A stretch of DNA of 64,000 nucleotides, taken from positions 6,292,319 to 6,356,318 of the forward strand of contig NC_087390.1 in assembly GCF_963675165.1 (NCBI RefSeq), in the 5' to 3' direction. This DNA is from Halichondria panicea (taxonomy: Eukaryota; Porifera; Demospongiae; Suberitida; Halichondriidae). Position numbers and translations under genes: made by a program. Position 1 is the first letter of the stretch; each line of letters opens with the position of its first letter. The notes under the pieces were generated by a model. That model was not told where the DNA came from. It ran no database searches and was given only the letters and a program-made list of their open reading frames with translations. This document shows, in pieces, positions 33,463 to 62,837 of the stretch.

Positions 33463-34322
33463 TCAGCTCAGGAGGTTTAGAGTATAAGGACACTTGGTGA
33501 CAGTCAGTGTACAGATGCCATTACTTGGCGTGAATGTTCTGTGACCATCACTACTGGGATAGGTAACTTGACAGGCACAGTAAATGATGTTTCCACCTTT
33601 GTAGTGTGTGGTGGACACAAAGTGGCCGGTAAAGGGAAGATCACACAATATGCTGGATATGAAGTATTGTGTGTCCTGTATGGGATTGATAATTATGGTT
33701 AACATTTGATCATGTGCTTTATGTAGTGGCTTAGACTTACTCCACGATTGATGGTCACACCCTGATTAGTGGTACAAGTGGCATAAGTAGTGGTTGATGA
33801 TTGTGACAACGAACAAGTGCTGGTCTCCTGGATGCAACCCTCATAGAGATTGATTGTGCGGAGACGGTCCAAATCTTGACGAATGTTGTTCTGTACCAAA
33901 GTTGAGGTCTGTATTAAGTTCTGCATGCTGGCTATCTGGGATTCTTTAGCAGTGTTTGTTTCCTCCAACTGTTGAATCCTCGATAACAACAGATTATATC
34001 CGGCAGTGCTTGCACTTGATTCAGTGTTGTCTCCACCACTGACCAGAGGACTGTACATGATGACAGCCACCAGAGACACAACTAGAGCAATGACCAGAAA
34101 TACAGTCATCAATGCAATCACAACACATTTCCACCTCTTGACTTTAGTGGAGATTTGACCGGCTAGTTGGGAGTTGTTCTCAACTTCAACACGGTTAGGA
34201 CGATTGATTGTCATGTAATGAGATTGTTGTTCCTGCATCTCGACGTGCTCGTACAACTCTTGTTCTTTGTTTGGCTGTGGTTTAACCTGGCGACTTGTTT
34301 TAGGAGCTGGTTGACGACTCAT
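33463..34322 (-). CDS. Family II ITAM/ITIM-like type II receptor, gene 1
   Basis: Exons 34322-33741 and 33675-33463 (264 aa), with donor GGA|GTAAGT and acceptor ATACAG. Predicted order: cytoplasmic tail (1-65) with Y24 in LYEHV and Y36 in SHYMTI. The latter fits the ITIM consensus, and together (YxxV-x8-YxxI) they nearly fit an ITAM. Membrane segment about 66-89 after KVKRWK; coiled-coil stalk about 110-158; then the Cys-rich domain (GCIQETSTC, YATC; exon 2 DTQYFISSILCD, YCACQV, CTLTVTKCPYTLNLLS). There is no signal peptide, so a type II orientation is expected. The domain matches no family I can name, but its spacing and the intron site mirror family I. First of the array after calaxin, on the opposite strand. 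Confidence 0.82.
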
Positions 34323-35091
34323 TTTCTCAACTAATTGAGTGAGTCACATCACATAATGTGCATTTTATGGTGCAATGTGCATATATATACATGCATGTCT
34401 ATAGCATTATTAATATTATCATATTGATAGAAGGAGGTAAACAGTTTCTGTTTGTAGTTTTAGATGAAAGCAAACCCCACATTACAGTAAACACACTTGC
34501 AACAGGTGGACTTCATCTGCATACCATCAAGCCACAATAAGTTATATAGTTCCCATGCACTGCATGCTATTGTGCAGTACTGTACTGTATAGTAATTTCT
34601 GTGCAATTGTGCGTGAAAGTGGGTGGCTGTACTTACTACCTATATCAAAGCTACAATATTCATCCATTAACACATGTAAATTTTACACAGTAGCTACAAA
34701 CAAGTATATATTTGGCATAATTATGTCTTCACAATAAACACCACAGATATACTTATGAGTTATGACGAACAAGTATACGGAGATCTGCCATATAAAGTCA
34801 TCAAGATGTAAGTTGTCTCATGTGATGTCAATGCATGCTGCATATACTTTTTGGCCAGTTTCGTTGATCACACACATGGCTGCATAATTATAAGAGAGAA
34901 ACCATGGTAACACAGCCACAAAACACTATTGCAATGATGAAAAGCTTCATGTTATTGTAAACAGTGTCACTTTAAACATGTGTCACTACTTACATTGAGA
35001 TCTCAGAGTGAAAATTTGTTGTAGTCCTTGCAAATTTGATGACGGTATGATGTTATTAATAGCATTACGACATCTTTCTGTTTCTCTGCAG

Positions 35092-35388
35092 GATCATGAC
35101 AATGACTTAAAAGTGTCATTTGAGGATTTTAAGAAGTCTATTGAGAATGAGCGACTGTTGATTGAAGCATTTGGACCTTGTTCACCAGACTCTACCTTGT
35201 TAGAGGACTTCTCAGCTAAAATATGCAGTATTAATTGTTATGACTATATATATGCATACAAAGGATTGTGTATGCATGTGTTGAATGAGTGGGTGGCATT
35301 GCAGTATCTACAACATTATGATGCATGGTATCAAGAGTTCATTATGGTGGTATGCAGCAGCAGCAGTAATCAGACAACAACAAATTAA
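35092..35388 (+). CDS. Duplicate calaxin terminal exon, open with novel C-terminus
   Basis: Acceptor TTTCTGTTTCTCTGCAG is followed by DHDNDLKVSFEDFKKS and on to EDFSAKI, then 42 new residues to a stop. It is in the same phase as calaxin exon 4, so exon 3 (ending 32628) could splice to it and give a different tail. Loop position 6 is Leu instead of Ser. There is no exon 1-3 copy next to it. It may be an alternative last exon or inert. Confidence 0.5.
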   Translation, partial: DHDNDLKVSFEDFKKSIENERLLIEAFGPCSPDSTLLEDFSAKICSINCYDYIYAYKGLCMHVLNEWVALQYLQHYDAWYQEFIMVVCSSSSNQTTTN

Positions 35389-35504
35389 ATGTACACTAAA
35401 TAATTATTAAGCTAGATGGAGGGTAACAGATAAACACCATGTAGCTACTCATTCACACAATGTCTCAGTTCAGTTTCAGCAAAATACGTTATAGTCAGTT
35501 TAGC

Positions 35505-35660
35505 TCAGAAGGTTTTGAGTATAAGGACACTTGGTGACAGTCAGTGTATATACAGACTAGCCTGCCGATTATTTAATCGGCCTCGAGGCTATGTGCAGAC
35601 AGGATAATAGACAGCGAATGTGCTGTGACCAGTACTAATAGGAGAAGTAAGTTATACTGT
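35505..35660 (-). pseudogene. Family II exon 2 fragment with hairpin insert
   Basis: The 3' end of a family II exon 2 (complement of CTGTCACCAAGTGTCC and KCPYT codons). It is interrupted by GCCGATTATTTAATCGGC with a CCTCGAGGCT end, a small hairpin of the TAGCCTCGA type. No open frame remains. Confidence 0.75.
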
Positions 35661-36098
35661 ATTATACTGTACAGTAATTTCTGTGCAATTGTGTGTGTGC
35701 CTGAGTGGATCTGCAAAATAATAATTAAAATTAATCGACATTGAAAGTTAGGTCACAGTATACTGGGTGGCTGTGCTTATAGCTAGATCTACCTATATAT
35801 ATCAAAGCTACAACATCACTTTAACTTATGTAAATTTTATACAGTATAGCTCATTGTAAACAAGCAAAACTGCATGGTATGCAGGTAATTGGGTATGTGT
35901 TTGAGTTGAGTGGGTGGTGGTTCTGCAGGACATCTCATATAAATTATAATGTGAACTCATGCACGCACATAGTAAAGGTAACGAACTATTAACATCATGC
36001 ACAATCTATGCAGCTATAATATATATATATTGTTGAACTACACACAATGTCACAAGACAATTTAGTTTCAGCAAAATACTTATTATAATTATGTCAGT

Positions 36099-36312
36099 TC
36101 AGTTGAGGAGGTTTTGAGTATAAGGACACTTGGTGACAATCAGTGTGCAGACCACATTACTTCCCGAGTCGTGACCATCACCATTGGGAGGAGCAGTAAT
36201 ATCACAGTCACAGTGAATACTGTTTCCATGCACTCTTGTAGTATGAGGTTGACACAAAGAAGCCGGTATGGGACAGATCACACAATATACTGGATGTGAA
36301 GTAATCTGTGTC
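36099..36312 (-). pseudogene. Solitary family II exon 2, frameshifted
   Basis: It begins DTDYFTSSILCDLSHTGFF and then shifts frame; the second half (HCDCDI, VVCTLIVTKCPYTQNLLN) is in another frame. No exon 1 lies upstream within the next kilobase. Confidence 0.8.
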
Positions 36313-36381
36313 CTGTATGGATTGATACCCTATAGCTCAATGTCATTATAAAACGTGTATGTATTAGTTATTGCCCAGCCA

Positions 36382-36476
36382 GCAACATGCCATATATTGC
36401 ACTGGAGCAATATAATGCCCTCGGGCCGCAGGCCCCGAGGGCATTATATCATCCAGTGCAATATATGGCATGTTGC
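36382..36476. mobile_element. Palindromic MITE
   Basis: A near-perfect palindrome, with GCAACATGCCATATATTGCA paired with its complement and a GC-rich tip (CCCTCGGGCC/GGCCCCGAGGG). Related sequence recurs at 36720-36850 and, inverted, at 61670-61830. Confidence 0.85.
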
Positions 36477-36923
36477 ACGAGGGCGCCTGCAATAACTAAC
36501 TTGTTGCCCAATGACGTTAAACTCGTCTGACTGGTCATATAAATCGTAATAAAAGACATGTGTTTTGAAGGAATTTAGTGTATTCATTAGTTTTGCTGAA
36601 TTCCATAGTAAATTTTTTAGGTTTTCTTCACACTAGTAGTTGTAAAGGTAGTAGCCTATAAAAGGGACCAACTGAGTATTGGGTAGGATGGTGGGGCATA
36701 AGTCCCAACTGGATATCTCTTAAAGAAATCTACTGCATTTACACACAGTGCAAGTGCATATAATCCAGTGCAATATATGGTAGCCATCCATGGCAGTTAT
36801 GCAACATGCCATATACTGAGCACTGGATTGCTTTGATCTGCCCACTCACTGGGCAACAAATATATATATATATATACGTTATAGATGTGCATTCATTTGC
36901 GACATCTTTCTGTTTCTCTACAG

Positions 36924-37076
36924 GATCATGACAATGTCTCGAAAGTGTCACTGGAGGATTTCAAGAAGTCTATTGAGAATGAGCGACTGTTGATTGAAGC
37001 ATTTGGACCTTGTTTACCAGACTCCACCTTGTTAGAGGAGTTCTCAGCTAAAATATTCATCCGATCATTATTATGA
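36924..37076 (+). CDS. Duplicate calaxin terminal exon with damaged EF loop
   Basis: Acceptor TTTCTCTACAG, then [16 protein letters not shown] through LLEEFSAKIFIRSLL and stop (51 codons with stop). Loop position 5 is Val instead of Asp, so calcium binding by this hand would be weakened. It is open and splice-competent, either an alternative end or a relic. Confidence 0.45.
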   Translation, partial: DHDNVSKVSLEDFKKSIENERLLIEAFGPCLPDSTLLEEFSAKIFIRSLL

Positions 37077-37245
37077 GTGCTTTGCACTATGTGCAATATC
37101 TAGCTATTATACAACATGTACAGAACTGTGCAAAATGTACACAATAACTTATAGCTAGAAGATAACATTATAAACACCATTTAGAGCAGCTATACTGCCT
37201 CAGTTAATTGTTTCAGCAAAATATAGGTAGTATTATTAAAACAGT

Positions 37246-38289
37246 TTAGTTCAGGAGGTTTCGAGTATAAGGACACTTGGTGACAGTCAGTGTACAGATG
37301 CCATTACTTGGTGAGAATGTTCTGTGACCATCACTATTGGGATAGGTAACTTGACAGGTACAGTAAATATTGTTTCCACTCTTGTCGTATGTGGATGACG
37401 TGAAGTGGCCAGTATAGAATTGAAGATTACACAATATGCTGGATGTAAAGTATTGTGTGTCCTGTATGGGATTGATATGATTATGAGCTGTACACTTAAA
37501 ATTGATCATGTTATTAGTGTACTAGAGGCTTAGACTTACTTCAGGATTGATGGACATACTTGGACTAGTGCGACAAGTGGCATAAGTACTCGTTGATGAT
37601 GTTGGCATCGTGCAAGTCCTGGTCTGCTGGATACAGCCCTCATAGAGGTTGATTGTGCGGAGACGGTCCAAATCTTGACGAAGGTTGTTCTGGATCAAAG
37701 TTGATGTCTGTATTAAGTTCTGCATGCTGGCTATCTGGGAAGAGTACAATGCTGATGATTTAACAGTGTTCGCCACTGTGACATTCAATCCCTGAATTGC
37801 TTGCATCCTTCCCTCCAACTGTGAGATCCTCGACAATATATAGTTATAGTCCATTTGCCGCTGAACTTGTGCTTCCAGGAATTTTTGTAGCAATTCAAAA
37901 GAGTGGTTGGTTCCCTGTTGTTCCATTCTTCCCTCCAACTGCTGTATCCTAGACAACAGATTATCTCCGGCAGTGCTGGCACTTGATTCAGTGTTGTCTC
38001 CACTGCTGACCAGAGGACTGTATATGATGACTGCCACCAGAGACACAACTAGAGCAATGACCAGAAATACAGCAATCAGTGCAATCACAACACGTTTCCC
38101 CCTCTTGACTTTAGTGGAGATTTGACCGGCTAGTTGGGATTTGTCCTCAACTTCAACGCGGTTAGGGCGATTGATTGTCATGTAATGAGATTGTTGTTCC
38201 TGCATCTCGACGTGCTCGTACAACTCTTGTTCTTTGTTTGGCTGTGGTTTAACCTGGCGACTTGTTTTAGGAGCTGGTTGACGACTCAT
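37246..38289 (-). CDS. Family II receptor, gene 2 (long stalk)
   Basis: Exons 38289-37540 and 37461-37246 (321 aa), the longest intact member. The tail has LYEHV and SHYMTI as in gene 1. The extra length lies in the stalk: three heptad segments each starting near LLSRI or ILSRI QQLEGRM, with NHSF and NVTV glycosylation sites. The Cys-rich domain has GCIQQTRTC, then DTQYFTSSILCN, YCTCQV and CTLTVTKCPYTRNLLN. The donor is GAA|GTAAGT. Upstream in-frame codons (VTQLVEK) are treated as leader because most siblings begin at MS(R/S)QP. Confidence 0.83.
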
Positions 38290-38712
38290 CTTCTCAACTA
38301 ACTGGGTCACATCACATAATGTGTATTTATAGCATTTTATGGTGCAGCAATGTGCGTATATACATATCTATATAATAGCAACATTAATGTCATATTGATA
38401 GAGGGAGGTAAACAGTTCCTGTTTGTTGTTTTAATTACTGAAAGCAAACCACATTTAATACAGTAAACACACATACAATAAGCATAAAACAGATGGACTT
38501 CATCTGCCATCAAGTCCCAATATAATTATAGTTCCCCATGCCTGCATGCTATTGTGCAGCACTGTATATACTATAGTAATTTCTGTGCAATTTTTGTGCC
38601 TGAGTGGATCTGCTTAAAATGCAATATCCCAATACAGAACCCCATAAGGCCACTGCTAATGAATGTCATGTTTCTGGTTTGGGAATCACCTTACCACTAA
38701 ACCTATACCAGC

Positions 38713-39017
38713 TATAGCCTCGAGACCAGCCGTTCGTTATTTGAAGAACGCCTGGTCAAGTTCCAATGTAGCACTCGTCCAGCGGTCCAGGAATTTCTTG
38801 GACCGGTAATTGCCCGCAACAACCATACTTTCCCGTGAATATCATTATGATGCTTCCAGTAACGTGCAGCTAGCTATAGTATTGTTGTGGTTGCAGTTAC
38901 CGCATCATGTTCACAACTACTCAAGCCTAACCACTCGCTGACTCAGCTAAATGAGTTCTACATTGGAACTTGACCAGGCGTTCTTTCAGATAACGAACGG
39001 CTGGTCTCGAGGCTATA
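38713..39017. mobile_element. TIR element, TAGCCTCGAGACC termini
   Basis: Inverted repeats of about 60 bp (TATAGCCTCGAGACCAGCCG and complement GGCTGGTCTCGAGGCTATA) bound about 305 bp. It provides the empty site (TTGCAGTTACCGC at 38891) for an element nested in its relative at 50828-51419. Confidence 0.85.
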
Positions 39018-39882
39018 TACCAGCTACTGAGGGAGGGAGGTTATCATTATTCATTATTGTGACATCACTTCCTGTAAAACCCATTTCCTGTTAATTAAAA
39101 ACACAACACAAACATGAAGGCACAGTACAAGAGTAATTGTACACTTCAATTTTTATCATATGACACACCCACAAATAGGTGTGGCTAATGAAAACAATGA
39201 AGTGATGTCATAATAATGAGTTTTTTTTATGAGGTAGTGAAATTCAATGATGGAGGTGACCAGAAACAAGACTTTCATCCTAACGGACCCTCCCACTAGA
39301 GCATAACCTCTCTAGCTCTATAGAGTAGTCTCGCGGACCCAGACCCTGAAAGATTGTAACGACTGGCTTGCGAGACTATCCATAGAGGACACTCAGCTAT
39401 ATGGCACAAATTGAAATCACTATCTACTGTCTAAGTACACAGAAACAACCTTCCACTATAGCAGACCTTCTTGATTCCGGACAGAGGACAATTAAGCTTT
39501 GTGCTCCCAAAACTGACCAACTTGGCTCTCTGTGTAAAACTGCCTCTTATAACAAACAGGAAACTACATTATGCTCAACAATTATGCCATGCCATATTGG
39601 GCATAAAAATAATAGTACTATATAGACGCACGTCTATAATAATTATACAACATAATTGAAATAAGCAAAAAACTGTATGCAGATAATTGGGTATGTGTTT
39701 GGAGTTCAGTGCCAGGGCGGTAAATTATTCTCATGAACTCATGCACATAATAATTTATAGTAAAGCTTAGGGTAATTATCTATCCAGCTATAATTATATA
39801 ATATATACATTCTTAGCTATTGAGCTACACACAATGTCATAAGACAATTCAGTTTCAGCAAAATACGTATTATCAAGTCAGT

Positions 39883-40990
39883 TCAGTTGAGGAGGTTTTG
39901 AGTATAAGGATACTTGGTGATAGTCAGTGTGCAGACGGCATTACTTCCCAAGGCTACTGAGCCATGACCATCACCGTCGGGACACAGTCACAGCAAATAT
40001 TGTTGCACTCTTGTAGTACGAGGTTGACACAAAGAAGGCGGTATTATAGACAGATCACAATAATTATTATATACTGGATGTGAAGTACTCTGTGTCCTGC
40101 ATGCATGTGGGATTGATACCACCCTCAATGTATGTAGATATATAATTATGATAAATACACTTACACCAGGATTGATGGTTATATCTCCAGTTTGACAGCC
40201 GATCCAATAAGGATTGATTGGAATTGGCAACGTACAAGTCCTGGTCTCCTGGATACAGCCCTCAAAGAGGTTGACTGTGCGGAGACAGTCCAAATCTTGA
40301 CGAAGGTTGTTCTGTACCAAGCTCAGGTTTTGCACTGAGTTCTGCACAATAAGAAACTGTGAGGAGACAGTATCATCATAGTCCGATTACCGCTGAAATT
40401 GTACTTATACCCTGCATCTCATTTGGTACAGTGGATCTCCTTTTATTATGACGTACACTTTGGGAAACAAAATTTTGGCCATCATAATTATATAGAGGCC
40501 TTTATTGAGAGGTTCTTTTGCACACACTGTGACTGTGTTCATTTGGGACCTGGGTGGCTGGCCTTAATATCACAGTTGGCCTTCAGGAGTGCCATGGCCG
40601 GTAAGAGGGTTCCATGCACTTACAGTAGCAAATCCCTGCATGTAGTCACCACCACTCTTGCAAATTTGATTTTGTTATAACCATAAGTACATACATAACT
40701 ATAGCAATCTACTACACTAGAAGGGCTGTATGATGACTGCCACCAGAGACACAACTAGAGTACAGGCCAGAAATAAAGCCATTAGTGCAATCACAACAAC
40801 ATTCCACAACTCTTGGTTTTAATGGAGATTTGACCGAGTATGTAGTTGAGAACTGTCCTCAACGGGGTTGGGGTGAATGGTGGTCATGTTCTTCCTGCAT
40901 CTCAAGTTATTCATACACATCTTCTTCTTTGCTGGGCTGTCCTTTCACTGTGGGTGACTTATCATGTTTAGAAGCTTGGCTATATATACT
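39883..40990 (-). pseudogene. Family II receptor pseudogene (split exon 1), copy psi-1
   Basis: Exon 2 relic 39883-40096 and the exon 1 3' part 40165-40380 (stalk, GCIQETRTC, donor GGT|GTAAGT) are recognisable. The 5' part (tail and membrane codons) lies at 40718-40990, heavily decayed, with about 330 bp of foreign sequence between. There is no continuous frame. The same broken structure recurs at 47.5-48.6 and 52.2-52.8 kb, so it broke before it was duplicated. Confidence 0.8.
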
Positions 40991-41194
40991 TATCTCCTCA
41001 ACTGATGTGTGTAATAATTATGAATCATGCACATCATAATTATTTATATAGCATACTAGCAATTATTGCATGGACCACCTTGTATGTAAAATCACAGTAT
41101 ATAATTATTAAACAGTAGACATCTGCCATAAAGTCATAAATTTAAGTTTATATATAGTTGTCTCATGTGATGTCTCACTGCATGCGTATTACTG

Positions 41195-41285
41195 AGAACA
41201 AGTGACTGTTAGTCTGTTAGTTTACCATGCATGCAGACTCTATACCTTGTTAGATCTGGGATTTCTCAGCTAAAATATTCAGTGG
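41195..41285 (+). pseudogene. Calaxin exon 4 remnant
   Basis: Retains CAAGTGACTGTTAGT...TTTACC...CAGACTC...CTTGTTAGA and TTCTCAGCTAAAATATTCAG. The acceptor and the first half are lost. Confidence 0.75.
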
Positions 41286-41567
41286 TTACCACTTAATGAC
41301 ATGCAGATATTGTATCTTAATGCCAATTAAAGTAGGTCAATTAGTGCACTCAATACTGGGTGGGTATGTGGGTGATCATGACTCTACAGTAAACTTTAAC
41401 AACGCATCATATACTACAAAAATCAAGTACAAGCAATTAATTAGAATTAAGCAAGAGGGTGACAGACAACATTATATACACCAACGAATACGTAAGCTAT
41501 TCATGCATTGTTTTGAAGTACACACAATATCTCAGTTTAGTACATTTCAGCAATAATATACTTAAAG

Positions 41568-42349
41568 TCAGTTCAGTTGAGGAGGTTTCGAGTATTAAGG
41601 ACACTTGGTGACAGTCAGTGTGCGGACAGGATCATATAGACAGAGAATGAGCTGTGACTAGCACCACTGGGATAAGTAACTTCACAGTAGCAGTAAATAT
41701 TGTTTCCACTCTTGTAGTATGTGGCTGATGTGAAGTAGGCTGGTATGAGAAAAATCACACACTATGCTGGATGTGAAGTACTGTGTGTCCTGTATGGGAT
41801 TGATATGGTTATGAGCTGTACACTTGATCATGTGATTATAGTGTATTATATAGGGGCTTAGACTTACTCCACGAGGTCACACTACTAGTGCTACAAGTGG
41901 CATAACTAGTGACTGATGATTGTGTTATCGTACAAGGTCCTGGTCTCCTGGATACAGCCCTCATAGAGGTTGATTGTGCGGAGACAGTCCAAATCTTGAC
42001 GAATGTTGTTCTGTACCAAAGTTGAGGTCTGTATTAAGTTTTGCATGCTGGCTATCTGGGATTCTTTAGCAGTGTTTGTTTCCTCCAACTGTTGAATCCT
42101 CGACAATAGATTCCCAGTGTCTCCACCGCTGACCCAGAGGACTGTATATGATGACAGCCACCAGAGACACAATTAGAGCAATGACCAGAAATACTGCAAT
42201 CAATGCAATCACAACACATTTCCCCCTCTTGACTTTAGTGGAGATTTGACGGCTAGTTGGGATTTGTCCTCAACTTCAACGCAGTTAGGGCGATTGTAAT
42301 GAGATTGTCGTTTCCTGCATCTCGACGTGTTCGTACAACTCTTGTTCTT
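41568..42349 (-). pseudogene. Family II receptor pseudogene, copy psi-2
   Basis: Exon 1 relic 41868-42349 with several frameshifts (around the membrane segment and GCIQETRT), lacking the first 18 codons. The exon 2 relic 41568-41792 has an indel in the KCPY region (GTATTAAGGACAC). The sequence that replaces the 5' end resembles the upstream flank of gene 5. Confidence 0.8.
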
Positions 42350-42566
42350 TGGATTAGATCACATATTGATGAGGTCTATTATTTTATTACACAAACAAAA
42401 ATTGCATCATCTGTAATTGAAGAATTTTTCCCATATGGCTAGGTGTAACTCATTAATTAATTTAGGCCACACCCCTAACATGATGAACTTTTTGGGAAGC
42501 CATGAGGGGGCTGATGAGAAACTACTAATCTACTTTGCCTGACCTATTAGAGTCACATCACATATC

Positions 42567-42622
42567 AGCCTCGAATCCATGCTGATTAAAATATGTATTT
42601 TAATCAGCGTGGATTCGAGGCT
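42567..42622. mobile_element. Hairpin element, AGCCTCGAATCC ends
   Basis: A 56-bp near-perfect hairpin; AGCCTCGAATCCATGCTGAT pairs with its complement. A close relative is at 50385-50442. Confidence 0.8.
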
Positions 42623-43129: not shown

Positions 43130-43970
43130 TCAGCTCAGGAGGTTTCGAGTATAAGGGCACTTGGTGACAGTCAGTGTGCAGATGCCATTGAACGAGAATA
43201 TACTGTGAATACTACCACTGGGATAGGTAACCTCACAGCGACAACGGATATTGTTTTCACTCTTGTAGTACGAGGTTGACACGAGGTAGTTGGGATTTGA
43301 AACATCACACAATATGCTGGATGTGAAGTACTGTGTGTCCTGTATGGGATTGATATGGTTATGAAACTGTGCATACATAACTAATCACGTGGTGGGGGAC
43401 CCAAAAGGCAATGTTTAGACTTACTCCAGAATTTATGGTTACAACACCAGTGTTGCAGGCGATCCAATAATTGCCATTTGCTGCCAACGTACAAGTCCCT
43501 GTCTGCTGGATACAGCCCTCATAGAGGTTGATTGTGCGGAGACGGTCTAAATCTTGACGAATGTTGTTCTGTGCCAAAGTTGAGGTCTGTATTAAGTTCT
43601 GCATGCTGGCTATCTGGGATTCTTTAGCAGTGTTTGTTTCCTTCAGCTGTTGAATCATCGATAATAGATTCCCAGTGTCTCCATTTCTGACCAGAGGACT
43701 GTATATGATGACAGCCACCAGAGACACAACTAGAGCAATGACCAGAAATACTGCAATCAGTGCAATCACACCACATTTCCACCTCTTGACTTCAGTGGAA
43801 ATTTGACCGGCTAGTTGGGATTTGTCCTCAACTTCAACAGGGTTAGGGCGATTGATTGTCATGTAATGAGATTGTTGTTCCTGCATCTCGACGTGCTCGT
43901 ACAACTCTTGTTCTTTGTTTGGCTGTGATTTAACCTGGCGACTTGTTTTAGCAGCTGGTTGACGACTCAT
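43130..43970 (-). CDS. Family II receptor, gene 3
   Basis: Exons 43970-43425 and 43339-43130 (251 aa). The tail is as in gene 1 (LYEHV, SHYMTI), with NP instead of NR before VEVE. It has a single-segment stalk (NLLSMIQQLKETNTAKE). The first Cys cluster differs: GCIQQTGTCTLAANGNYWIAC. Exon 2: DTQYFTSSILCDVSNPNY, RCRCEV, GICTLTVTKCPYTRNLLS. The donor is GGA|GTAAGT. It belongs to the NYWIAC subtype together with gene 6. Confidence 0.82.
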
Positions 43971-45098: not shown

Positions 45099-45998
45099 TC
45101 AGTTCAGGAGGTTTCGAGTATAAGGACACTTGGTGACAGTCAGTGTGCAGATGCCATTACTTGGTGAGAATGTTATGTGACCAGTACCAGTGGGAAAGGT
45201 AACTTGACAGGAGCAACGGATATTGTTTCCACTCTTGTCGTATGTGGATGACGTGAAGTGGCCGGTATAGAATTGAAGATTACACAATATGCTGGATGTG
45301 AAGTACTGTGTGTCCTGTATGGGATTGATATGGTTATGAGCTGTACACTTGATCATGTGATTATAGTGTATTAGAGGCTATAGACTTACTCAAGGATTGA
45401 TGGTCACACTACTAGTGAGACAAGTGGCATAAGTACTCGTTGATGATGTTGGTATCGTACAAGTCCTGGTCTCCTGGATACAACCCTCATAGAGGTTGAT
45501 TGTGCGGAGACGGTCCAAATCTTGACGAACGTTGTTCTGTATTGAAGTTGAGGTCTGTAATAAGTTCTGCATGCTGGCTATCTGCATGGGAAGAGTAAAA
45601 TGCTGATAATTAATTAACAGTGTTTGCCACTGAACGCTTGCACGTACACTTCCCTCCAACTGTGAGATCCTCGACAACATATTATCTCCGGCAGTGCTGG
45701 CACTTGATTCAGTGTTGTCTCCACTGCTGACCAGAGGACTGTACATGATGACAGCCACCAGAGACACAACTAGAGCACAGACCAGAAATACAGCAATCAG
45801 TGCAATCACAACACGTTTCCCTCTCTTGACTTTAGTGGAGATTTGACCGGCTAGTTGGGATTTGTCCTCAACTTCAACGGGGTTAGGGCGATTGATTGTC
45901 ATGTAATGAGATTGTTGTTCCTGCATCTCGACGTGCTCGTACAACTCTTGTTCTTTGTTTGGCTGGTGACTTGTTTTAGCAGCTGGTTGACGACTCAT
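45099..45998 (-). pseudogene. Family II receptor, gene 4, stop at exon 1 end
   Basis: Exons 45998-45390 and 45314-45099 are otherwise intact. The last codon of exon 1 is TGA where siblings have GGA, CGT-GGA or GAA before GTAAGT, so a single change ends the protein at 202 residues with only half of the Cys-rich domain. The tail is shortened (KTSHQPNKEQ) but keeps LYEHV and SHYMTI. Exon 2 (GNNIRCSCQVTF, CTLTVTKCPYTRNLLN) is open and shows no decay, so the stop is recent. A truncated but functional product is possible. Confidence 0.72.
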
Positions 45999-47526: not shown

Positions 47527-48645
47527 TCAGTTGAGGAGGTTTTGAGTATAAGGATACTTGGTGATAGTCAGTGTGCAGACGGAATTACTTCCCAAGGCTA
47601 CTGAGCCATGACCATGACCGTCGGGACACAGTTACAGCGAATATTAATATTGTTTCCACTCTTGTAGTACGAGGTTGACACAAAGAAGGCGGTATTAGAC
47701 AGATCACCATAATATTATATACTGGATGTGAAGTACTCTGTGTGTGTCCTGCATGCATGTGGGATTGATACCACCCTCATGCAATGTATGTAGATATATA
47801 ATTATGATAAATACACTTACACCAGGATTGATGGTTATATATACCATCAGTGTGACAGCCGATCCAATAAGGAATTGGCAATGTACAAGTCCCGGTCTCC
47901 TGGATACAGCCCTCATAGAGGTTGACTGTGCGGAGACGGTCCAAATCTTGACGAAGGTTGTTCTGTACCAAGCTCAGGTTTTGCACTGAGTTCTGCACAA
48001 TAAGAAACTGTGAGGAGACAGTATCATCATAGTCCGATTGCCGCTGAAATTGTACTTATTATCTCATTTGGTACAGTGAATCTCCTTTTATTATGACGTA
48101 CACTTTGGGAAACAAAATTTTGGCCATTATAATTATATAGAGGCCTTTATTGAGAGGTTCTTTTGCACACACTGTGACTGTGTTCATTTGGGACCTGGGT
48201 GGCTGGCCTTAATATCACAGTTGGCCTTCAGGAGTGGTCGTAGGAGGGTTCCATGCACTTACAGTAGCAAATCCCTGCATGTAGTCACCATACTTATGTA
48301 TGTCACCATACATGGCTTGCAAATTTGATTTTGTTATAACCATAAGTACATACATAACTATAGTAATCTACTACACTAGAAGAGCTGTATGATGACTGCC
48401 ACCAGAGACACAACTAGAGTACAGGCCAGAAATAAAGCATTAGTGCAATCACAACAACATTCCTCCTCTTGGTGTTAATGGAGATTTGACCGAGTATATA
48501 GTTGAGAACTGTCCTCAACGGGGTTAGGGTGAATGGTGGTCATGTCAGTCCTGAGACTGTTCTTCCTGCATCTCAAGTTGTTCATACACGTCTTCTTCTT
48601 TGCTTGGCTGTCCTTTCACTGGGTAACTTATCATGTTTAGAAGCT
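47527..48645 (-). pseudogene. Family II receptor pseudogene (split exon 1), copy psi-3
   Basis: Same layout as psi-1: exon 2 relic 47527-47748, stalk and first Cys part 47821-48045 (GCIQETGTCTLPIPYWIGC), decayed 5' part 48385-48645. Frames are broken throughout. Confidence 0.8.
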
Positions 48646-49219: not shown

Positions 49220-50119
49220 TCAGCTCAGGAGGTTTTTAGTATAAGGACACTTGGTGACAGTCAGTGTGCAGACAGGATTATAGATATAGAATGAGCTGTG
49301 ACCAGAACTACTGGGAGCAGTAACTTCACAGGAGCAGCGAATACTGTTTCCACTCTTGTAGTATGTGGATGATGTGAAGTAGCTGGTATAAGAAAAATCA
49401 CACAATATGCTGGATATGAAGTACTGTGTGTCCTGTATGGGATTGATATGGTTATGAGCTGTACACTTGATCATGTGATTATAGTGTATTAGAGGCTATA
49501 GACTTACTCCAGGATTGATGGTTACATAAGCAGTGCTACAAGTGGCATAACTAGTGACTGATGATGATTGTGTTATCGTACAAGTCCCGGTCTCCTGGAT
49601 ACAGCCCTCATAGAGGTTGATTGTGCGGAGACGGTCCAAATCTTGACGAAGGTTGTTCTGTGCCAAAGTTGAGGTCTGTATTAAGTTTTGCATGCTGGCT
49701 ATCTGGGAAGAGTACAATGCCGACGATTTAACAGTATTTGCCACTGTGACATTCAACCCCTGAATTGCTTGCACTCTTCCTTCCAACTGTGAGATCCTCG
49801 ACAACAGATCCTCGACTTTAGTGTTGTCTCCACCGCTGGCCAGAGGACTGTATATGATGACAGCCACCAGAGACACAACTAGAGCAATGACCATAAATAC
49901 AGCAATCAGTGCAATCACAACACATTTCCCCCTCTTGACTTTAGTGCAGATTTGACCAGCTAGTTGGGATTTGTTCTCAACTTCAACGGGGTTAGGACGA
50001 TTGATTGTCATGTAATGAGATTTTTGTTCCTGCATCTCGACGTGCTCGTACAACTCTTGTTCTTTGTTTGGCTGTGGTTTAACCTGGTGACTTGTTTTAG
50101 GAGCTGGTTGACGACTCAT
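49220..50119 (-). CDS. Family II receptor, gene 5
   Basis: Exons 50119-49508 and 49432-49220 (274 aa). The tail has LYEHV and SHYMTI (EQKSHYMTI here). The stalk has LLSRISQLEGRVQAIQ and NVTVANT, like gene 2 but one segment shorter. Cys cluster: GCIQETGTC, YATCSTAYV. Exon 2: DTQYFISSILCDFSYTSY, IRCSCEV, VCTLTVTKCPYTKNLLS. The donor is GGA|GTAAGT. The 5' leader differs from the other intact genes (YLPKK before the start) and matches the flank of psi-2, pointing to a different promoter. Confidence 0.82.
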
Positions 50120-50384: not shown

Positions 50385-50442
50385 TAGCCTCGAATCCACG
50401 CCGATTAAAACACGTATTTTAATCGGCGTGGATTCAAGGCTA
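50385..50442. mobile_element. Hairpin element, TAGCCTCGAATCC ends
   Basis: A 58-bp hairpin (TAGCCTCGAATCCACGCCGA and near complement), related to 42567-42622, upstream of gene 5. Confidence 0.8.
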
Positions 50443-51419: not shown

Positions 51420-52197
51420 CCAGCTACTGAGGGAGGGAGGTTATCATTATTCATTATTGTGACATCACTTCCTGTAAAACCCCCATTTCCTGTTAATTAA
51501 ACACAACAACACAAACATGAAGGACAGTACAAGAGTAATTTAACATTGTACACTTCAATGATTTATCATATGATACACCCACAAGTAGGTGTGGCTAATG
51601 AAAATAATGAAGGATGTCATTTTTTTATGAGGTAGTGAAATTCAACGAGGGAGGTGACCAGAAACATGACTTTCATTAACAGTGGCCTAACGGACCCTCC
51701 CACTGGAGCACAACCTCTCTAGCTCTATAGAGTAGCCTCGCGGACCTAGACCCTGAAAGATTGTAACGGCTGGCTTGCAAGACTATCCATAGAGGACACT
51801 AGCTATGGCACAAATTGAAATCACTATCTACTGTCTAAGTACACAGAAACAACCTTCCACTATAACAGACCTTCTTGATTCCGGCCGGACAGAGGACAAT
51901 TAAGCTTTGTGCTCCCAAAACTGACCAACTTGGCTCTCTGTGCAAAACTGCCTCTTATAATTATAAAAGACGAACAGGAAACCACATTATGCCCAACAAT
52001 TATGCCATGCCATATTGGGCATAAAATAATAGTACTATAATTATACAACATAATTATTAATAGAAATAAGCAAAAAACTTGTGTTTGGAGTTCAGTGCCA
52101 GGGTGGTAAATTATTCTGATAAACTCATGCACATAATAATTTATAGTAAAGGGTAACATCACAATCTATGCAGCTATAATTATCTATTGAACTACAT

Positions 52198-52815
52198 GCA
52201 GTATCATCATAGTCCGATTGCTGCTGAAATTGTACTTATACCCTGCATCTCATTTGGTACAGTGGATCTCCTTTTATTATGACGTACACTTTGGGAAACA
52301 AAATTTTGGCCATCATAATTATAGAGGTGGCCTTTATTGAGAGGTTCTTTTGCACACACTGTGACTGTGTTCATTTGGGACCTGGGTGGTTGGCCTTAAT
52401 ATCACAGTTGGCCTTCAGGAGTGGCCGGTAGGAGGGTTCCATGCACTTACAGTAGCAAATCCCTGTAGTCACCACCACTCTTGCAAATTTGATTTTGTTA
52501 TAACCATAAGTACATACATATAACTATAGCAATCTACTACACTAGAAGAGCTGTATGATGACTGCCACCAGAGACACAACTAGAGTACAGGCCAGAAATA
52601 GCATTAGTGCAATCAGTCACAACAACATTCCTCCTCTTGGTTTTAATGGAGATTTGACCGAGTATATATGTAGTTGAGAACTGTCCTCAACGGGGTTAGG
52701 GTGAATGGTGGTCATGTACTAGCTGAGATTGTTCTTCCTGCATGCATCTCGAGTTAATCATACACGTCTTCTTCTTTGCTTGGCTGTCCTTTCACTGGGT
52801 GACTTATCATGTTTA
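52198..52815 (-). pseudogene. Family II receptor relic, copy psi-4
   Basis: A decayed tail and membrane part at 52550-52815 and a stalk scrap at 52198-52240, separated by the same foreign segment as in psi-1 and psi-3. The Cys-rich part and exon 2 are deleted. Confidence 0.75.
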
Positions 52816-53029
52816 GAAGCTTGGCTATATATATACTTATCTTCTCAACTGATGTGTGTAATATGAATCATGCACATCATAATTATTTATATAGCATACT
52901 AGCAATTATTGCATGGACCACCTTGTATGTAAAATCACAGTATATAATTATTAACAAACAGTAGACATCTGCCATAAAGTCATAAATTTAAGTTTATAGT
53001 TGTCTCATGTGATGTCTCACTGCGTATTA

Positions 53030-53098
53030 CTGAGAACGAGTGACTGTTACAGACTCTACTGTGTTAGATCTGGGATTTCTCAGCTAAAATATTCAGTG
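53030..53098 (+). pseudogene. Calaxin exon 4 remnant
   Basis: A short relic: GAACGAGTGACTGTTACAGA, then GTGTTAGATCTGGGATTTCT and AGCTAAAATATTCAGTG. Confidence 0.65.
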
Positions 53099-53414
53099 CC
53101 TATAACACTTATGACATGCAGATATTGTATCTTAATGCCAATTAAAGCAAGTCAATTAGTGCACTCAATACTGGGTGTTGGGTATGTGGGTGATCATGAC
53201 TCTGCAGTAAACTTCAACAACGCATCCTATATTTTTATATATACTACAAAAATCAAGTTACAAGCAATTACTTAGAATTAAGGAGAGGTTAAGAGGGTGA
53301 CAGACAACATTATATATACACCAACATATACGTAAGCTATTCATGCATTGTTTTGAAGTACACACAATATCTCAGTTTAGTACATTTCAGCAATAATACT
53401 TAAAGCCATGCAGT

Positions 53415-54609
53415 TCAGCTCAGGAGGTTTTTAGTATAAGGACACTTGGTGACAGTCAGTGTGCAGACAGGATTATAGATAGAGAATGAGCTGTGACTAG
53501 CACCACTGGGATACGTAACTTCACAGTAGCAGTAAATATTGTTTCCACTCTTGTAGTAGGTGGATGATGTGAAGTAGCTGGTAAGAGAAAAATCACACAC
53601 TATGCTGGATGTGAAGTACTGTGTGTCCTGTATGGGATGGATATGGTTATGAGCTGTAACTTGATCATGTGATTATAGTGTATTAGGGCTTGGACTTACT
53701 CCAGGATTGATGGTCACACCACCATTAGTGCGACAAGTGGCATAACTAGTGACTGATGATTGTGTTATCGTGCAAGTCCTGGTCTCCTGGATACAGCCCT
53801 CATAGAGGTTGATTGTGCGGAGACGGTCTAAATCTTGACGAAGGTTGGTCTGTATCGAAGTTGAGTTCTGTATTAAGTTCTGCAGGCTGGCTATTTGGGA
53901 AGAGTGTGATGCCAACATCATTGTGATAGTGTCGCGCCCACTGTTACATTTGTTCCCTGCATTGTGTGGAGATGGTCTAAATCTTGACGAACGTTGTTTT
54001 GCATTGAGCTAAGGGCTGATTCTAGCGATTCCTTCAGCGATATCAAAGAATGGTTGGTTGCTCCCTGTATTGTCCAAAGGTGGTCCAAATCTTGACAAAT
54101 GTTGTTCTGTACCAAGCTCAGGTTTTGCACTGAGTTCTGCACATTAAGGAACTGTGAGGAGACATTACCATCATAGTCCGATTGCTGCTGAACTTGTGCT
54201 TCTATAGTGACTCCAGCGATTTCTGAAAGAGTTGTTGGTTACCTGCATTTTCTCCAGCTGCTGTATCCTTGACAACAGATCCTCCACTTCAGTGCTGGCA
54301 CTTGATTCAGTGTTGTCTCCACTGCTGACCAGAGGACTGTATAATTATGATGACAGCCACCAGAGACACAACTAGAGCAATGACCAGAAATACAGCCACC
54401 ATTAGTGTAATCACACAAAAGTTCCCTCTATTAATTTTAGTGGAGATTTGACCAGCTAGTTGGGAGTTGTCCTCAACGTGGTTAGGGCGATTGATTGTCA
54501 TGTACTGAGATTGTTCTTCCTGCATCTCGAGTTGTTCATACACCTCTTCTTCTTTGCTCGGCTGTCCTCTCACTGGGTGACTTATCTCAGGAGCTGGTTG
54601 GCGACTCAT
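53415..54609 (-). pseudogene. Family II receptor pseudogene, copy psi-5, with full ITAM match
   Basis: Exon 1 relic 54609-53700 and open exon 2 53627-53415 (IVCDFSLTSYF, YCYCEV, CTLTVTKCPYTKNLLS). The tail is the most divergent: EEEVYEQLEMQEEQSQYMTI, which fits the ITAM pattern (YxxL-x8-YxxI). Frameshifts after the membrane segment (extra bases in TATAATTATGATG) and within an enlarged stalk (at least three DLDRL/DLDHL-type repeats) break the protein. Confidence 0.78.
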
Positions 54610-54969
54610 CTTCTCTGTATATATATGATTATAATTAGGAACATCACATCACGTATTTATAGCATAGAAATTGCATGATTTTGTATACGCATAACAGGAC
54701 CATCTTGTGGCAGGTGGATAACAGTTGTTGTTATTATAATGAAGCAAAAGAAAGTTAAGAGAGCTATAAGCTTATACATAAGAAGACTTTATTAGGCAAA
54801 ATAGTGAGATTCAATTCGATAATTCTGTCCAATAAATAAACACCACATGTACAACAGTAAACGAGTGATGCAAGCTGTGCTGTGCTATTGCCTCTCGCCA
54901 TGCATATTTTGCTTTCGCTCAAAAAGTATTGTCAAAGGCATAGTCTATATTATAGTCTAAGAATAGTGA

Positions 54970-55057
54970 GAGAACGAGTGACTGTTGATTGAAGTATTTG
55001 GACCTTGTTTACCAGACTCAACCTTGTTAGAGGACTTCTCAGCTAAAATATGCTGCA
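54970..55057 (+). pseudogene. Calaxin exon 4 remnant, 3' part
   Basis: Starts within GAACGAGTGACTGTTGATTG and continues through CTTGTTTACCAGACTCAACC to CTCAGCTAAAATATG. The acceptor and EF loop are missing. Confidence 0.75.
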
Positions 55058-55297
55058 TCGCTATGACTGTATACATGTATACAAGGGATTGAATTGAATT
55101 GAGTGGGTGGCATTGCAGCAGCTAGAACATTATGATGGTATACAGTAATCCGACGATAAAAAATTAAAGTATATATACACCTAATTTTAAGCTAGAGGGT
55201 AACAGATATCATTATAAACACCATGTAGCTACTCATTCTATTAACTACACACAATGTCTCAGTTCTGTTTCAGCAAATTCGTATTATTAAAGTCAAT

Positions 55298-56129
55298 TCA
55301 GTTCAGGAGGTTTTGAGTATAAGGACACTTGGTGACAGTCAGTGTGCATACGGCACTACTGTACGAGAATGTACTGTGACCAGTACTAATGGGATTGGTA
55401 ACTTCACAGTCACAGCGAATACTGTTTCCATTCTTGTAGTATGAGGTTGACACGAGGTAGTTGGAACTGGACAAATCACACACTATGCTGGATGTGAAGT
55501 ACTGTGTGTCCTGTATGGGATTGATATTGTTATGGTTGTACATGCATAATTTATGAGTCCCGAGAGGCAATGTGTATACTTACTCTAGGATTGATGGATA
55601 CAAAACCAGTGTTGCAGGCGATCCAATAATTGCTTAATGTTGCCAAATGACAAGTGCTGGTCTCCTGGATACAGTCCTTATAGAGGTTGACTGTGTGGAG
55701 ACGGTCCAAATCTTGACGAAGGTTGTTCTGTGCCAAAGTTGAGATCTGTATTAAGTTCTGCATACTGGCTATCTGGGATTCTTTAGCAGTGTTTGTTTCT
55801 TCCAACTGTTGAATCCTCGACAATATATTCCCAGTGTCTCCACCGCTGACCAGAGGACTGTATATGATGACTGCCACCAGAGACACTACTAGAGCAATGA
55901 CTAGAAATACTGCAATCAATGCAATCACAACACATTTCCCCCTCTTGATTTTAGTGGAGATTTGACCGGCTAGTTGGGATTTGTCCTCAACTTCAACGCG
56001 GTTAGGACGATTGATTGTCATGTAATGAGATTGTTGTTCCTGCATCTCGACGTGCTCGTACAACTCTTGTTCTTTGTTTGGTTGTGGTTTAACCTGGCGA
56101 CTTGTTTTAGCAGTTGGTTGACTACTCAT
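55298..56129 (-). CDS. Family II receptor, gene 6
   Basis: Exons 56129-55584 and 55510-55298 (252 aa). It starts MSSQPTAKTS; the tail has LYEHV and SHYMTI. Short stalk NILSRIQQLEETNTAKE. Cys cluster DCIQETSTC with NYWIAC, the same subtype as gene 3. Exon 2: DTQYFTSSIVCDLSSSNY, IRCDCEV, VCTLTVTKCPYTQNLLN. The donor is AGA|GTAAGT. Residues between the first two Cys and after DTQYF differ most among genes 1-6, while the tail hardly changes. Confidence 0.82.
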
Positions 56130-56868
56130 CTTCTCAACTAATTGAGTCACATTGCATAATGTGTATTTTATGGTAACAGCAATGTGCGTATACATGTCTA
56201 TAGCATTATTAATATTATCATATTGATAGAAGGAGGTAAACAGTTTCTGTTTGTAGTTTTAGATGAAAGCAAACCCTACATTACAGTAAACACACTTGCA
56301 ACAGGTGGACTTCATCTGCATACCATCAAGCCACAATAAGTTATATAGTTCCCATGCACTGCATGCTATTGTGCAGCACTGTACTGTATAGTAATTTCTG
56401 TGCAATTGTGCGTGAAAGTGGGTGGCTGTACTTAGCTATATACCTGTATCAAAGCTACAATATTCATCCATTAACACATGTAAATTTTACACAGTAGCTA
56501 TACAAACAAGTATATATTTTGGCATAATTATGTCTTCACAATAAACACCACAGATATACTTGTGACGAACAAGTATACAGAGATCTGCCATATAAAGTCA
56601 TCAAGATGTAAGTTGTCTCATGTGATGTCAATGCACGCTGCATATACTTTTTTGGCCAGTTTCGTTAATCACACACACACATGGCTGCATAATTATGAGA
56701 GAAACCATGGTAACACAGCCACAAAACATATTGCAATGACTGTAACGGTGTCACTTTAAACATGTGTCACTACTTTCTGAGTGAAAATGTGTTGTGTAGT
56801 CGTTGCAAATTTTGACGACGGTATAATGTGCATTAATAGCATTACGACATCTTTCTGTTTCTCTGCAG

Positions 56869-57057
56869 GATCATGACAATGACTTAAAAGTGTCACTGGA
56901 GGATTTCAAGAAGTCTATTGAGAATGAGCGACTGTTGATTGAAGCTTGTTTACTAGACTCCACCTTGTTAGAGAACTTCTCAGCTCAAATATGCTGTATT
57001 GTTAATTATTATGACTGCATGTATGTATACAAGGGATTGTTGCATGTATTAAATTGA
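56869..57057 (+). pseudogene. Calaxin terminal exon copy, internal deletion
   Basis: Good acceptor (TTTCTCTGCAG), [16 protein letters not shown], then a 12-bp in-frame deletion turns [10 protein letters not shown] into EACLLDS; 63 codons to the stop. It is open but has lost a conserved piece. Confidence 0.65.
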
Positions 57058-57232
57058 ATTGAGTGGGTGGCATTGCAGCAGCTAGAACATTATGATGGTA
57101 TACAGTAATCAGACAAAAATTTGAAGTATACACTTAATTTTAAGCTAGAGGGTAACAGATAACATTATAAACACCATGTAGCTACTCATTCTATTAAATA
57201 TATACACTCAGTTCTGTTTCAGCAAATAGGTA

Positions 57233-58079
57233 TCAGTTCAGTTCAGGAGGTTTCAAGTATAAGGACACTTGGTGACAGTCAGTGTGCAGACGGCACTGCA
57301 TGTACAGGAATGTGTTGTGACCAGCACTAATGGGATAGGTAACTTCACATTCGCAGCAAATAGTGTTTCCACTCTTGTATGTACGAGGTTGACACAAGGT
57401 AGTTGGAACTGGACACATCACACACTATGCTGGATGTGAAGTACTGTGTGTCCTGTATGCATGGGATTGATATGGTTATGGTTGTACATGGATAACTTAT
57501 GAGTCCTGAGAGGCAATGTTTATACTTACTCCAGGATTGATGATCAGTAAAAAACCAGTGTTGCAAGCGATCCAATCATTGCTTAATGATAACAACAGTC
57601 AAGTCCTGGTCTCATTGGTACAGCCCCCATAGAGGTTAACTGTGCGGAGACAGTCCAAATCTTGACGAAAATTGTTTTGTGCCAAAGTTGATGTCTGTAC
57701 TAAGTGTTGTATGCTGGCTATCTGAGATTCTTTAGCAGTGTTTTTTTCCTCCAGCTGTTGAATCCTCGACAATAGATTCCCAGTGTCTCCACCGCTGACC
57801 AAAGGACTGTATAATGATGACAGCCACCAGACACACAACTAGAGCAATGACCAGAAATACAGTCATCAGTGCAATCACAACACATTTCCACCTCTCGATT
57901 TTAGTGGAGATTTGACCGGCTAGTTGGGAGTTGTTCTCAACTTCAACGTGGTTAAGACGATTGATTGTCATGTAATGAGATTGTTGTTCCTGCATCTCGA
58001 CGTGCTCGTACAACTCTTGTTCTTTGTTTGGCTGTGGTTTAACCTGGCAACTTGTTTTAGCAGCTGGTTGACGACTCAT
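57233..58079 (-). pseudogene. Family II receptor pseudogene, copy psi-6
   Basis: Exon 1 58079-57530: tail intact (LYEHV, SHYMTI), but an indel right after the membrane segment (GTATAATGATGAC) sends the stalk out of frame (ending GGKKHC and stop). Exon 2 57452-57233 also has frameshifts in its middle and near the KCP motif. Confidence 0.85.
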
Positions 58080-58823
58080 CTTCTCAACTAATTGAGTGAG
58101 TCACATCGCATAATGTGTATTTTATGGTAACAGCAATGTGCATATATATACATGTCTATAGCATTATTAATATTATCATATTGATAGAAGGAGGTAAACA
58201 GTTTCTGTTTGTTGTTTTAGATGAAAACAAACCCCACATTACAGTAAACACACTTGCAACAGGTGGACTTCATCTGCATACCATCAAGCCACAATAAGTT
58301 ATATAGTTCCTATGCATGCACTGCATGCTATTGTGCAGCACTGTACTGTATAGTAATTTCTGTGCAATTGTGCGTGAAAGTGGGTGGCTGTACTTACTAC
58401 CTATATCAAAGCTACAATATTCATCCATTAACACATGTAAATTTTACACAGTAGCTACAAACAAGCATATATTTTGGCATAATTATGTCTTCACAATAAA
58501 CACCACAGATATACTTGTGACGAACAAGTATACAGAGATCTGCCATATAAAGTCATCAAGATGTAAGTTGTCTCATGTGATGTCAATGCACGCTGCATAT
58601 ACTTTTTTGGCCAGTTTCGTTAATCACACACACACATGGCTGCATAATTATGAGAGAAACCATGGTAACACAGCCACAAAACATATTGCAATGACTGTAA
58701 CGGTGTCACTTTAAACATGTGTCACTACTTTCTGAGTGAAAATGTGTTGTGTAGTCGTTGCAAATTTTGACGACGGTATAATGTGCATTAATAGCATTAC
58801 GACATCTTTCTGTTTCTCTGCAG

Positions 58824-59012
58824 GATCATGACAATGACTTAAAAGTGTCACTGGAGGATTTCAAGAAGTCTATTGAGAATGAGCGACTGTTGATTGAAGC
58901 TTGTTTACTAGACTCCACCTTGTTAGAGAACTTCTCAGCTCAAATATGCTGTATTGTTAATTATTATGACTGCATGTATGTATACAAGGGATTGTTGCAT
59001 GTATTAAATTGA
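58824..59012 (+). pseudogene. Calaxin terminal exon copy, internal deletion (duplicate)
   Basis: Appears identical to 56869-57057, including the 12-bp deletion; duplicated with it. Confidence 0.65.
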
Positions 59013-59187
59013 ATTGAGTGGGTGGCATTGCAGCAGCTAGAACATTATGATGGTATACAGTAATCAGACAAAAATTTGAAGTATACACTTAATTTTAAGC
59101 TAGAGGGTAACAGATAACATTATAAACACCATGTAGCTACTCATTCTATTAAATATATACACTCAGTTCTGTTTCAGCAAATAGGTA

Positions 59188-60038
59188 TCAGTTCAGTTCA
59201 GGAGGTTTCAAGTATAAGGACACTTGGTGACAGTCAGTGTGCAGACGGCACTGCATGTACAGGAATGTGTTGTGACCAGCACTAATGGGATAGGTAACTT
59301 CACATTCGCAGCAAATAGTGTTTCCACTCTTGTATGTACGAGGTTGACACAAGGTAGTTGGAACTGGACACATCACACACTATGCTGGATGTGAAGTACT
59401 GTGTGTCCTGTATGCATGGGATTGATATGGTTATGGTTGTACATGGATAACTTATGAGTCCTGAGAGGCAATGTTTATACTTACCCCAGGATTGATGATC
59501 AGTAAAAAACCAGTGTTGCAAGCGATCCAATCATTGCTTAATGATAACAACAGACAAGTCCTGGTCTCATTGGTACAGCCCCCATAGAGGTTAACTGTGC
59601 GGAGACATGCAGTCCAAATCTTGACGAAAATTGTTTTGTGCCAAAGTTGATGTCTGTACTAAGTGTTGTATGCTGGCTATCTGAGATTCTTTAGCAGTGT
59701 TTTTTTCCTCCAGCTGTTGAATCCTCGACAATAGATTCCCAGTGTCTCCACCGCTGACCAAAGGACTGTATAATGATGACAGCCACCAGACACACAACTA
59801 GAGCAATGACCAGAAATACAGTCATCAGTGCAATCACAACACATTTCCACCTCTCGATTTTAGTGGAGATTTGACCGGCTAGTTGGGAGTTGTTCTCAAC
59901 TTCAACGTGGTTAAGACGATTGATTGTCATGTAATGAGATTGTTGTTCCTGCATCTCGACGTGCTCGTACAACTCTTGTTCTTTGTTTGGCTGTGGTTTA
60001 ACCTGGCGACTTGTTTTAGCAGCTGGTTGACAACTCAT
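59188..60038 (-). pseudogene. Family II receptor pseudogene, copy psi-7
   Basis: The twin of psi-6 with the same frameshifts; exon 1 60038-59485, exon 2 59407-59188. It starts MSCQPAAKTSRQ. An additional 4-bp insertion lies in the stalk. The shared lesions show that the pseudogene was already broken when it duplicated. Confidence 0.85.
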
Positions 60039-62820: not shown

Positions 62821-62837
62821 CCCCTCCCCCCACACAG

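Follow-up and report, generated by a model that had tools for sequence, protein, structure and literature searches.

A 64,000-nucleotide stretch of the Halichondria panicea genome (C14:6292319-6356318 of an assembly of 131 Mb in 39 contigs; hereafter the window) contains, at positions 33463-60038, an array of related two-exon genes, all on the minus strand, located by tblastn with one copy as the query against the window. Weighing motifs, predicted topology and predicted fold together, we see about an even chance that these genes specify recognition receptors of the cell surface, type II proteins that form trimers and have phosphotyrosine tails and possibly a lectin-like tip. A first-pass annotation, made from the sequence, had proposed five intact and at least eight broken receptor genes under rapid birth and death; its observations were confirmed, and its interpretation was supported in part. 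Five genes with intact open reading frames and clean splice sites lie in the window (g33, g37, g43, g49 and g55) and two more just past it (g64 and g69), accompanied by about ten broken copies or fragments (near 35.5, 36.2, 40, 42, 45.5, 48, 54, 57.7, 59.7 and 61.1 kb). By genome search, the array extends about 14 kb past the window end, up to C14:6370195. An exon 1 query against the genome, whose counts are lower bounds, gave at least 31 matches at E ≤ 0.001: 26 of these 31 in the array, 4 elsewhere on C14 and 1 on C5, the best at E = 4.4e-99 once the query's own match was set aside. These E values, together with a ratio of nonsynonymous to synonymous divergence (dN/dS) of 0.48 in the coding part before the tip (bootstrap 0.31-0.74), place the array beyond chance.

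Exon 1 encodes tail, membrane segment, stalk and half of the tip, exon 2 the remaining half, and the intron of 61-85 nt (GTAAGT...CAG; 65-85 nt in the five intact genes of the window) splits the tip. In agreement with the first description, all seven intact genes have the same four parts: a tail (about 65 residues), a single membrane segment (about 24), a stalk (59-125) and an eight-cysteine tip. The N-terminal tail is hydrophilic, several basic residues stand just before the membrane segment and none or one just after it, the ectodomain is C-terminal and no signal peptide was seen by eye, which is the type II layout that had been proposed; a hydrophobic helix occupies residues 71-98 of the predicted model. 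Read in this way, the proteins would be type II membrane receptors. The RhxxhE trimerisation motif, described in a passage of PMC5940361, occurs in six of the seven stalks, versus 1.3% of shuffled stalks, and the stalk is predicted to be a trimeric coiled coil.

The cytoplasmic tail carries YEHV-x8-YMTI in every intact gene, both in the five of the window, as claimed at the outset, and in the two beyond it. SHYMTI fits the consensus [SIVLT]xYxx[LIV] of the immunoreceptor tyrosine-based inhibition motif (ITIM) in all seven, as had also been noted. Tails were scored in 36 of 45 related proteins, nine being dropped as incomplete; at least 9 of the 36 come from the array, two (P0047 and P0051) were cut at the wrong place, and the tails are related by descent, so that the counts are not independent. 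A strict immunoreceptor tyrosine-based activation motif (ITAM), Yxx[LI]-x6-12-Yxx[LI], was found in 11 of the 36 (YEDI, YEHI, YQNI or YEQL with YMTI), versus 0.6% of shuffled tails, and an ITAM with V allowed in 25, versus 1.4%; an ITIM-type match was present in 26, one of them a mis-cut tail. The 11 tails that fit neither ITAM form comprise three with YMTT, three without the second tyrosine, three with the first motif only and the two mis-cut ones.

Genome searches returned 71 matches for SH2 domains and 176 for protein tyrosine phosphatases. A locus at C4:4.84 Mb has two SH2 domains followed by a kinase (read by eye and cut by the locus end), and the second SH2 has SYK as its best match (1.9e-35) and ZAP-70 as the next. 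At C3:8.40 Mb, two SH2 exons are followed by a phosphatase with HCSAGIGRTG, and the best match for 55 residues of the first SH2 is SHP-2 (4.7e-30). A Shark-like SH2-ankyrin-SH2-kinase arrangement was read by eye at C9:5.25 Mb. Because Syk/ZAP-70-like and SHP-2-like genes are both present, candidate activating and candidate inhibitory readers of such tails are encoded in the same genome. Most of the tyrosine phosphatase matches listed, which are at least part of the 176, lie on C4 at about 0.04-2.6 Mb, many of them in tandem.

For the tip, no Pfam match passed the cut-off, whether the query was the whole protein, the exon 2 part of the tip or the spliced tip; only weaker matches appeared. A PDB sequence search found nothing for P0015 (isoform X3 of NCBI LOC135348196, which contains g49 and starts 8 residues earlier), and the tip profile reached an E value of 0.38 or worse. 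C-type lectin and SRCR heads were considered, and neither gave a Pfam match over the cut-off for the tips, in sequence searches only; comparison of folds cannot exclude the C-type lectin. As far as the search filters allow, the H-type lectin profile PF09458 has no match in any of three complete tips at an E limit of 10, and its genome search gave one match, elsewhere in the genome and below the cut-off. Two predicted models agree on a tip of six strands without a helix; the top VIA rows of both are H-type lectins, at low Z, and Foldseek gave no significant match for either model. The tip may therefore have an H-type-lectin-like fold, to which its resemblance is weak. The earlier statement that no named domain matches the tip holds for Pfam but has to be qualified for the predicted fold, and for the array genes no match to a known non-receptor family emerged. 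Five representatives, at 24-34% identity to the first, all retain the eight cysteines; together with the six strands common to both models, this indicates that the tip is constrained.

Variation is concentrated at the tip. Over 21 pairs of the seven intact genes, which are not independent, dN/dS was 0.54 in the tail, 0.37 in the membrane segment, 0.49 in the stalk and 0.69 in tip exon 2; it was 1.40 in tip exon 1, with dN above dS in 19 of the 21 pairs and a bootstrap interval of 0.64-3.03 on seven genes, and 0.88, not above 1, for the whole tip. The higher ratio expected of the tip relative to the tail was thus seen, but 1.40 does not significantly exceed 1; a ratio above 1 for the tip was considered and is not claimed. 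In none of 5000 draws did random columns reach the nonsynonymous change of the tip; for tip exon 2 alone, the change was higher than in the draw in 4992 of the 5000. Among database relatives, of which 20 of 31 were used (four identical to array genes and seven unparsed were dropped), tip identity was 0.547 versus 0.738 for the tail, and lower in the tip in 186 of 190 pairs, so that the tip does vary more than the tail.

Upstream DNA is nearly the same in g33, g43 and g55 (0.01-0.09 over the 600 bases before the start), whereas their tip exon 1 sequences differ by 0.19-0.31. Similarly, g33, g37 and g64 are alike 200-500 bases past the stop (0.10-0.16) and unlike in the 200 bases that precede this stretch (0.45-0.53). 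Because segments of the same genes differ in similarity, the copies are mosaics of segments with different histories, for which gene conversion would be the cause. The intron diverges by 0.18, about as much as the tip exons (0.22 and 0.18). In the database protein P0020, the tail and stalk match g69 and the tip half matches g33, in both cases with full identity across the exon; such a chimera fits exchange between copies, but its longest contig is 2.3 kb and an assembly error could have produced it.

If the array encodes recognition receptors, the stalk would lift three disulfide-rich, six-strand tips towards a target, either a glycan or a protein, carried by microbes or other sponge cells, and ligand would cluster the trimers upon contact with a cell or microbe. 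Src-type kinases would then phosphorylate the clustered tails, and tandem-SH2 proteins could dock there, Syk-like ones to activate and SHP-2-like ones to inhibit, starting or stopping uptake, contact or rejection. Through duplication, exchange between copies and loss, the tip would be renewed and the signalling end would stay uniform. In this scheme, gene structure, motifs, the pattern of variation, mosaicism and the effector-like genes are observed, topology, trimer and fold are predicted or taken from the sequence, and we infer the phosphorylation, the docking, the ligand and the role.

The mammalian natural killer (NK) complex encodes, in a tandem array, type II receptors (Ly49, NKG2, CLEC-2, Dectin-1) with variable lectin-like heads and ITIM or hemITAM tails. 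The sponge genes are similar in their type II layout, stalk, variable and possibly lectin-like head, tyrosine-motif tail and tandem birth and death, but differ in a tip that has no C-type lectin Pfam match and no predicted helix, and in that some relatives carry a strict ITAM in one chain. The H-type lectins (Helix agglutinins, SLL-2 and the discoidin C-terminal domain) assemble as trimers, which fits the stalk, and the alignment with the predicted six-strand tip, about 95 residues long, covers almost their entire domain. The sponge aggregation factor, a candidate allorecognition molecule, is secreted and has other domains. Among invertebrates, a passage of PMC12065747 reports ITIM, hemITAM, ITAM or Yxx[ILV] motifs, with Syk/SHP-type effectors, for Botryllus fester co-receptors (FcoRs) and Hydractinia allorecognition genes; the sponge array would join these as a further set of variable invertebrate receptors with tyrosine motifs and candidate effectors of the same types. 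As described there, FcoRs have a signal sequence and Ig and sushi domains, whereas the array proteins have a type II layout, a coiled coil and a disulfide-rich tip. In the same text, how allorecognition works in invertebrates is called a complete mystery. No description of the array family was found among the matches listed from the open-licence literature, and a survey of H. panicea receptors that, in the part concerned, searched by known Pfam domains (PMC8242945) would probably miss it. Were the recognition reading true, sponges would join chordates and cnidarians, for which variable receptors encoded in arrays and bearing paired tyrosine switches have been reported, and receptor genes and effectors could be tested in one genome. 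A fast-evolving row of genes that pairs a variable, possibly sugar-binding tip with a tail resembling immune-receptor switches suggests, without proving it, that a lineage which arose very early in animal evolution has a system for recognition.

Several observations weigh against recognition receptors. The strict ITAM is absent from all seven intact genes, whose YEHV leaves them the one residue short that had been pointed out originally, and some relatives have no second tyrosine, YMTT in its place, an NPxY or dileucine motif, or no tyrosine motif at all. The ratio in tip exon 1, as given above, has a bootstrap interval that includes 1. Synonymous change is 0.097 in the tail and membrane segment versus 0.200 in the rest (8 of 5000 draws as low); therefore, homogenisation probably contributes, besides constraint, to the constancy of this end, and the proposed contrast of conserved tail and variable tip is supported with this qualification. 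Two relatives, P0058 and P0060, have an apparent signal peptide (by eye), a coiled coil and the same tip half; they look secreted, although the array proteins do not.

Because relatives vary in or lose their tyrosine motifs, the tail may be an endocytic signal. The main rival explanation, a serious one that we nevertheless rate as somewhat unlikely, makes the proteins trimeric, lectin-like type II endocytic receptors for glycans, taking up food particles, glycoproteins or symbionts, with YEHV and YMTI as YxxPhi signals for AP-2 and any signalling incidental. The asialoglycoprotein receptor and CLEC4F combine a type II layout, a coiled-coil stalk, a lectin head and a YxxPhi tail in just this way, but their head is a C-type lectin and they do not form a large array. 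Both motifs of the window tails fit the YxxPhi consensus, a YExx motif persists in tails that have lost the other, the tip is predicted to be H-type-lectin-like, and other tip genes carry NPAY (L029, L030 and L031) or EDEPLL (window 7563-7967), which are classic uptake signals. Uptake would, however, need neither the fixed x8 spacing nor the glutamate after the first tyrosine, and the strict ITAM in 11 of 36 scored tails, as well as YEEV-x6-YTTL in a gene beside a second array (L028 6086-6835), point to signalling; the two functions are not exclusive. Quite improbable, in our estimate, is that the proteins are polymorphic self-labels or adhesion ligands, whose variable tip is read by other cells. 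Such labels would show the same variable tips, mosaic copies and turnover of the array, and the secreted-looking relatives would suit such a role, but paired tyrosine motifs in a conserved tail would be needless for a passive label. An ordinary tandem-duplicate family with a housekeeping or matrix role, its motif and tip variation reflecting relaxed constraint and exchange, appears a shade less probable still: the whole-tip dN/dS, the homogenisation indicated by low synonymous divergence in tail and membrane segment, and an intron about as divergent as the tip exons would all agree with it, whereas the invariant cysteines and common strands make the tip constrained and nonsynonymous change is concentrated there.

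Recognition receptors of this kind might also draw on splicing between copies. NCBI LOC135347949 isoform X2 (P0055), in the second array, spans L026 6407-9356 (C14:5942406-5945355). Its exon 1 (L026 8607-9356) is joined, with GT and AG as splice sites, not to the intact exon 2 of the same copy, which starts at L026 8545, but to that of the next tandem copy (L026 6407-6613), whose exon 1 appears frameshifted. Mapping or alignment error among near-identical copies could account for P0055. If true and general, cross-copy splicing would add tip combinations and give broken copies a use. A bolder and, in our view, unlikely proposal is that the array is an independently evolved sponge counterpart of the mammalian NK receptor complex, with lectin-headed type II ITAM/ITIM receptors for self and non-self, tips reshuffled by copy exchange and neighbour splicing, and broken copies as donors of tip halves. 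Isoform X6 of LOC135348196 (P0023) contains exon 1 of copy g45 with a piece of the stalk spliced out; NCBI labels X3 and X6 uncharacterized (Halichondria panicea), and g49 and g45 fall under one locus name, which could again be alignment error among near-identical copies.

Coordinates of the array copies and relatives in the window
Feature	Position	Strand	Details
Intact gene g33, 264 aa	33463..34322	-	Exon 1 33741-34322, exon 2 33463-33675 (stop included)
Tail motif YEHV-x8-YMTI of g33 (residues 24-39)	34206..34253	-	Derived from exon coordinates
Exon 2 remnants (2)	35503..36300	-	tblastn
Intact gene g37, 321 aa	37246..38289	-	Exon 1 37540-38289, exon 2 37246-37461; longest stalk
Broken copy	39886..40957	-	Stops in exon 1
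Broken copy	41642..42353	-	Exon 1 frame lost
Intact gene g43, 251 aa	43130..43970	-	Exon 1 43425-43970, exon 2 43130-43339
Copy g45	45099..45998	-	TGA as last codon of exon 1, just before splice donor; exons otherwise open
Broken copy	47530..48628	-	YEQL-type tail, second motif gone
Intact gene g49, 274 aa	49220..50119	-	Exon 1 49508-50119, exon 2 49220-49432
Broken copy	53415..54609	-	YEQL-x8-YMTI (strict ITAM residues and spacing); exon 2 open
Intact gene g55, 252 aa	55298..56129	-	Exon 1 55584-56129, exon 2 55298-55510
Broken copy	57241..58079	-	Frame lost in both exons
Broken copy	59196..60038	-	Near-duplicate of copy 57241-58079
Possible remnant, exon 1 start	61046..61129	-	tblastn E = 0.006
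Possible distant relative	7239..7967	-	Short type II, dileucine-like EDEPLL, tip-like cysteines, E = 0.003
Distant relative, same tip pattern, almost no stalk	10464..11331	-	tblastn and exon 2 search

Exon 2 queries gave overlapping lists of 50 matches (E ≤ 0.01), 24 (0.001) and 9 (0.001). They extend the tip family to the second array (C14 5.83-5.96 Mb), three sites on C9, a single one on C4, two around C14 4.49 Mb and, inside the window, one at 10.5 kb. The second array holds a second family, at 27% identity, which joins YEDY..YEEV tails to the same tip; the C9 tails have NPAY with several Yxx[LIV], the C4 tail has NPAY, the tail at window 7563-7967 is dileucine-like, and no tyrosine motif was found near C14 4.49 Mb. 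H. panicea is the only organism named among the database matches, and no relative was found in contigs of prokaryote genomes. The tail repeat around SSYNHLNWGPTE of a C9 gene (L029 3864-4634) is present once in the assembly and in P0067, and its database relatives P0070 and P0071 have three and two such YNxL repeats, a tyrosine motif of variable copy number. Beside the second array, YE(D/N) motifs are numerous in the tail of another type II protein, encoded at L028 8816-9451. On the left side of the window, minus-strand positions 2177-2818, 7563-7967, 8900-9250, 9886-10251 and 13466-13954 encode short type II proteins with one membrane segment, cysteine-bearing ectodomains and little or no stalk; some resemble the first half of the tip, and together they may form an older group of relatives. 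A minus-strand open reading frame at 21938-23002 weakly matches the CILP C-terminal family (E 0.015, below the cut-off). Long tandem repeats occupy 5759-6278 and 61958-62836 of the window, with units of 18/90 and 48 bases.

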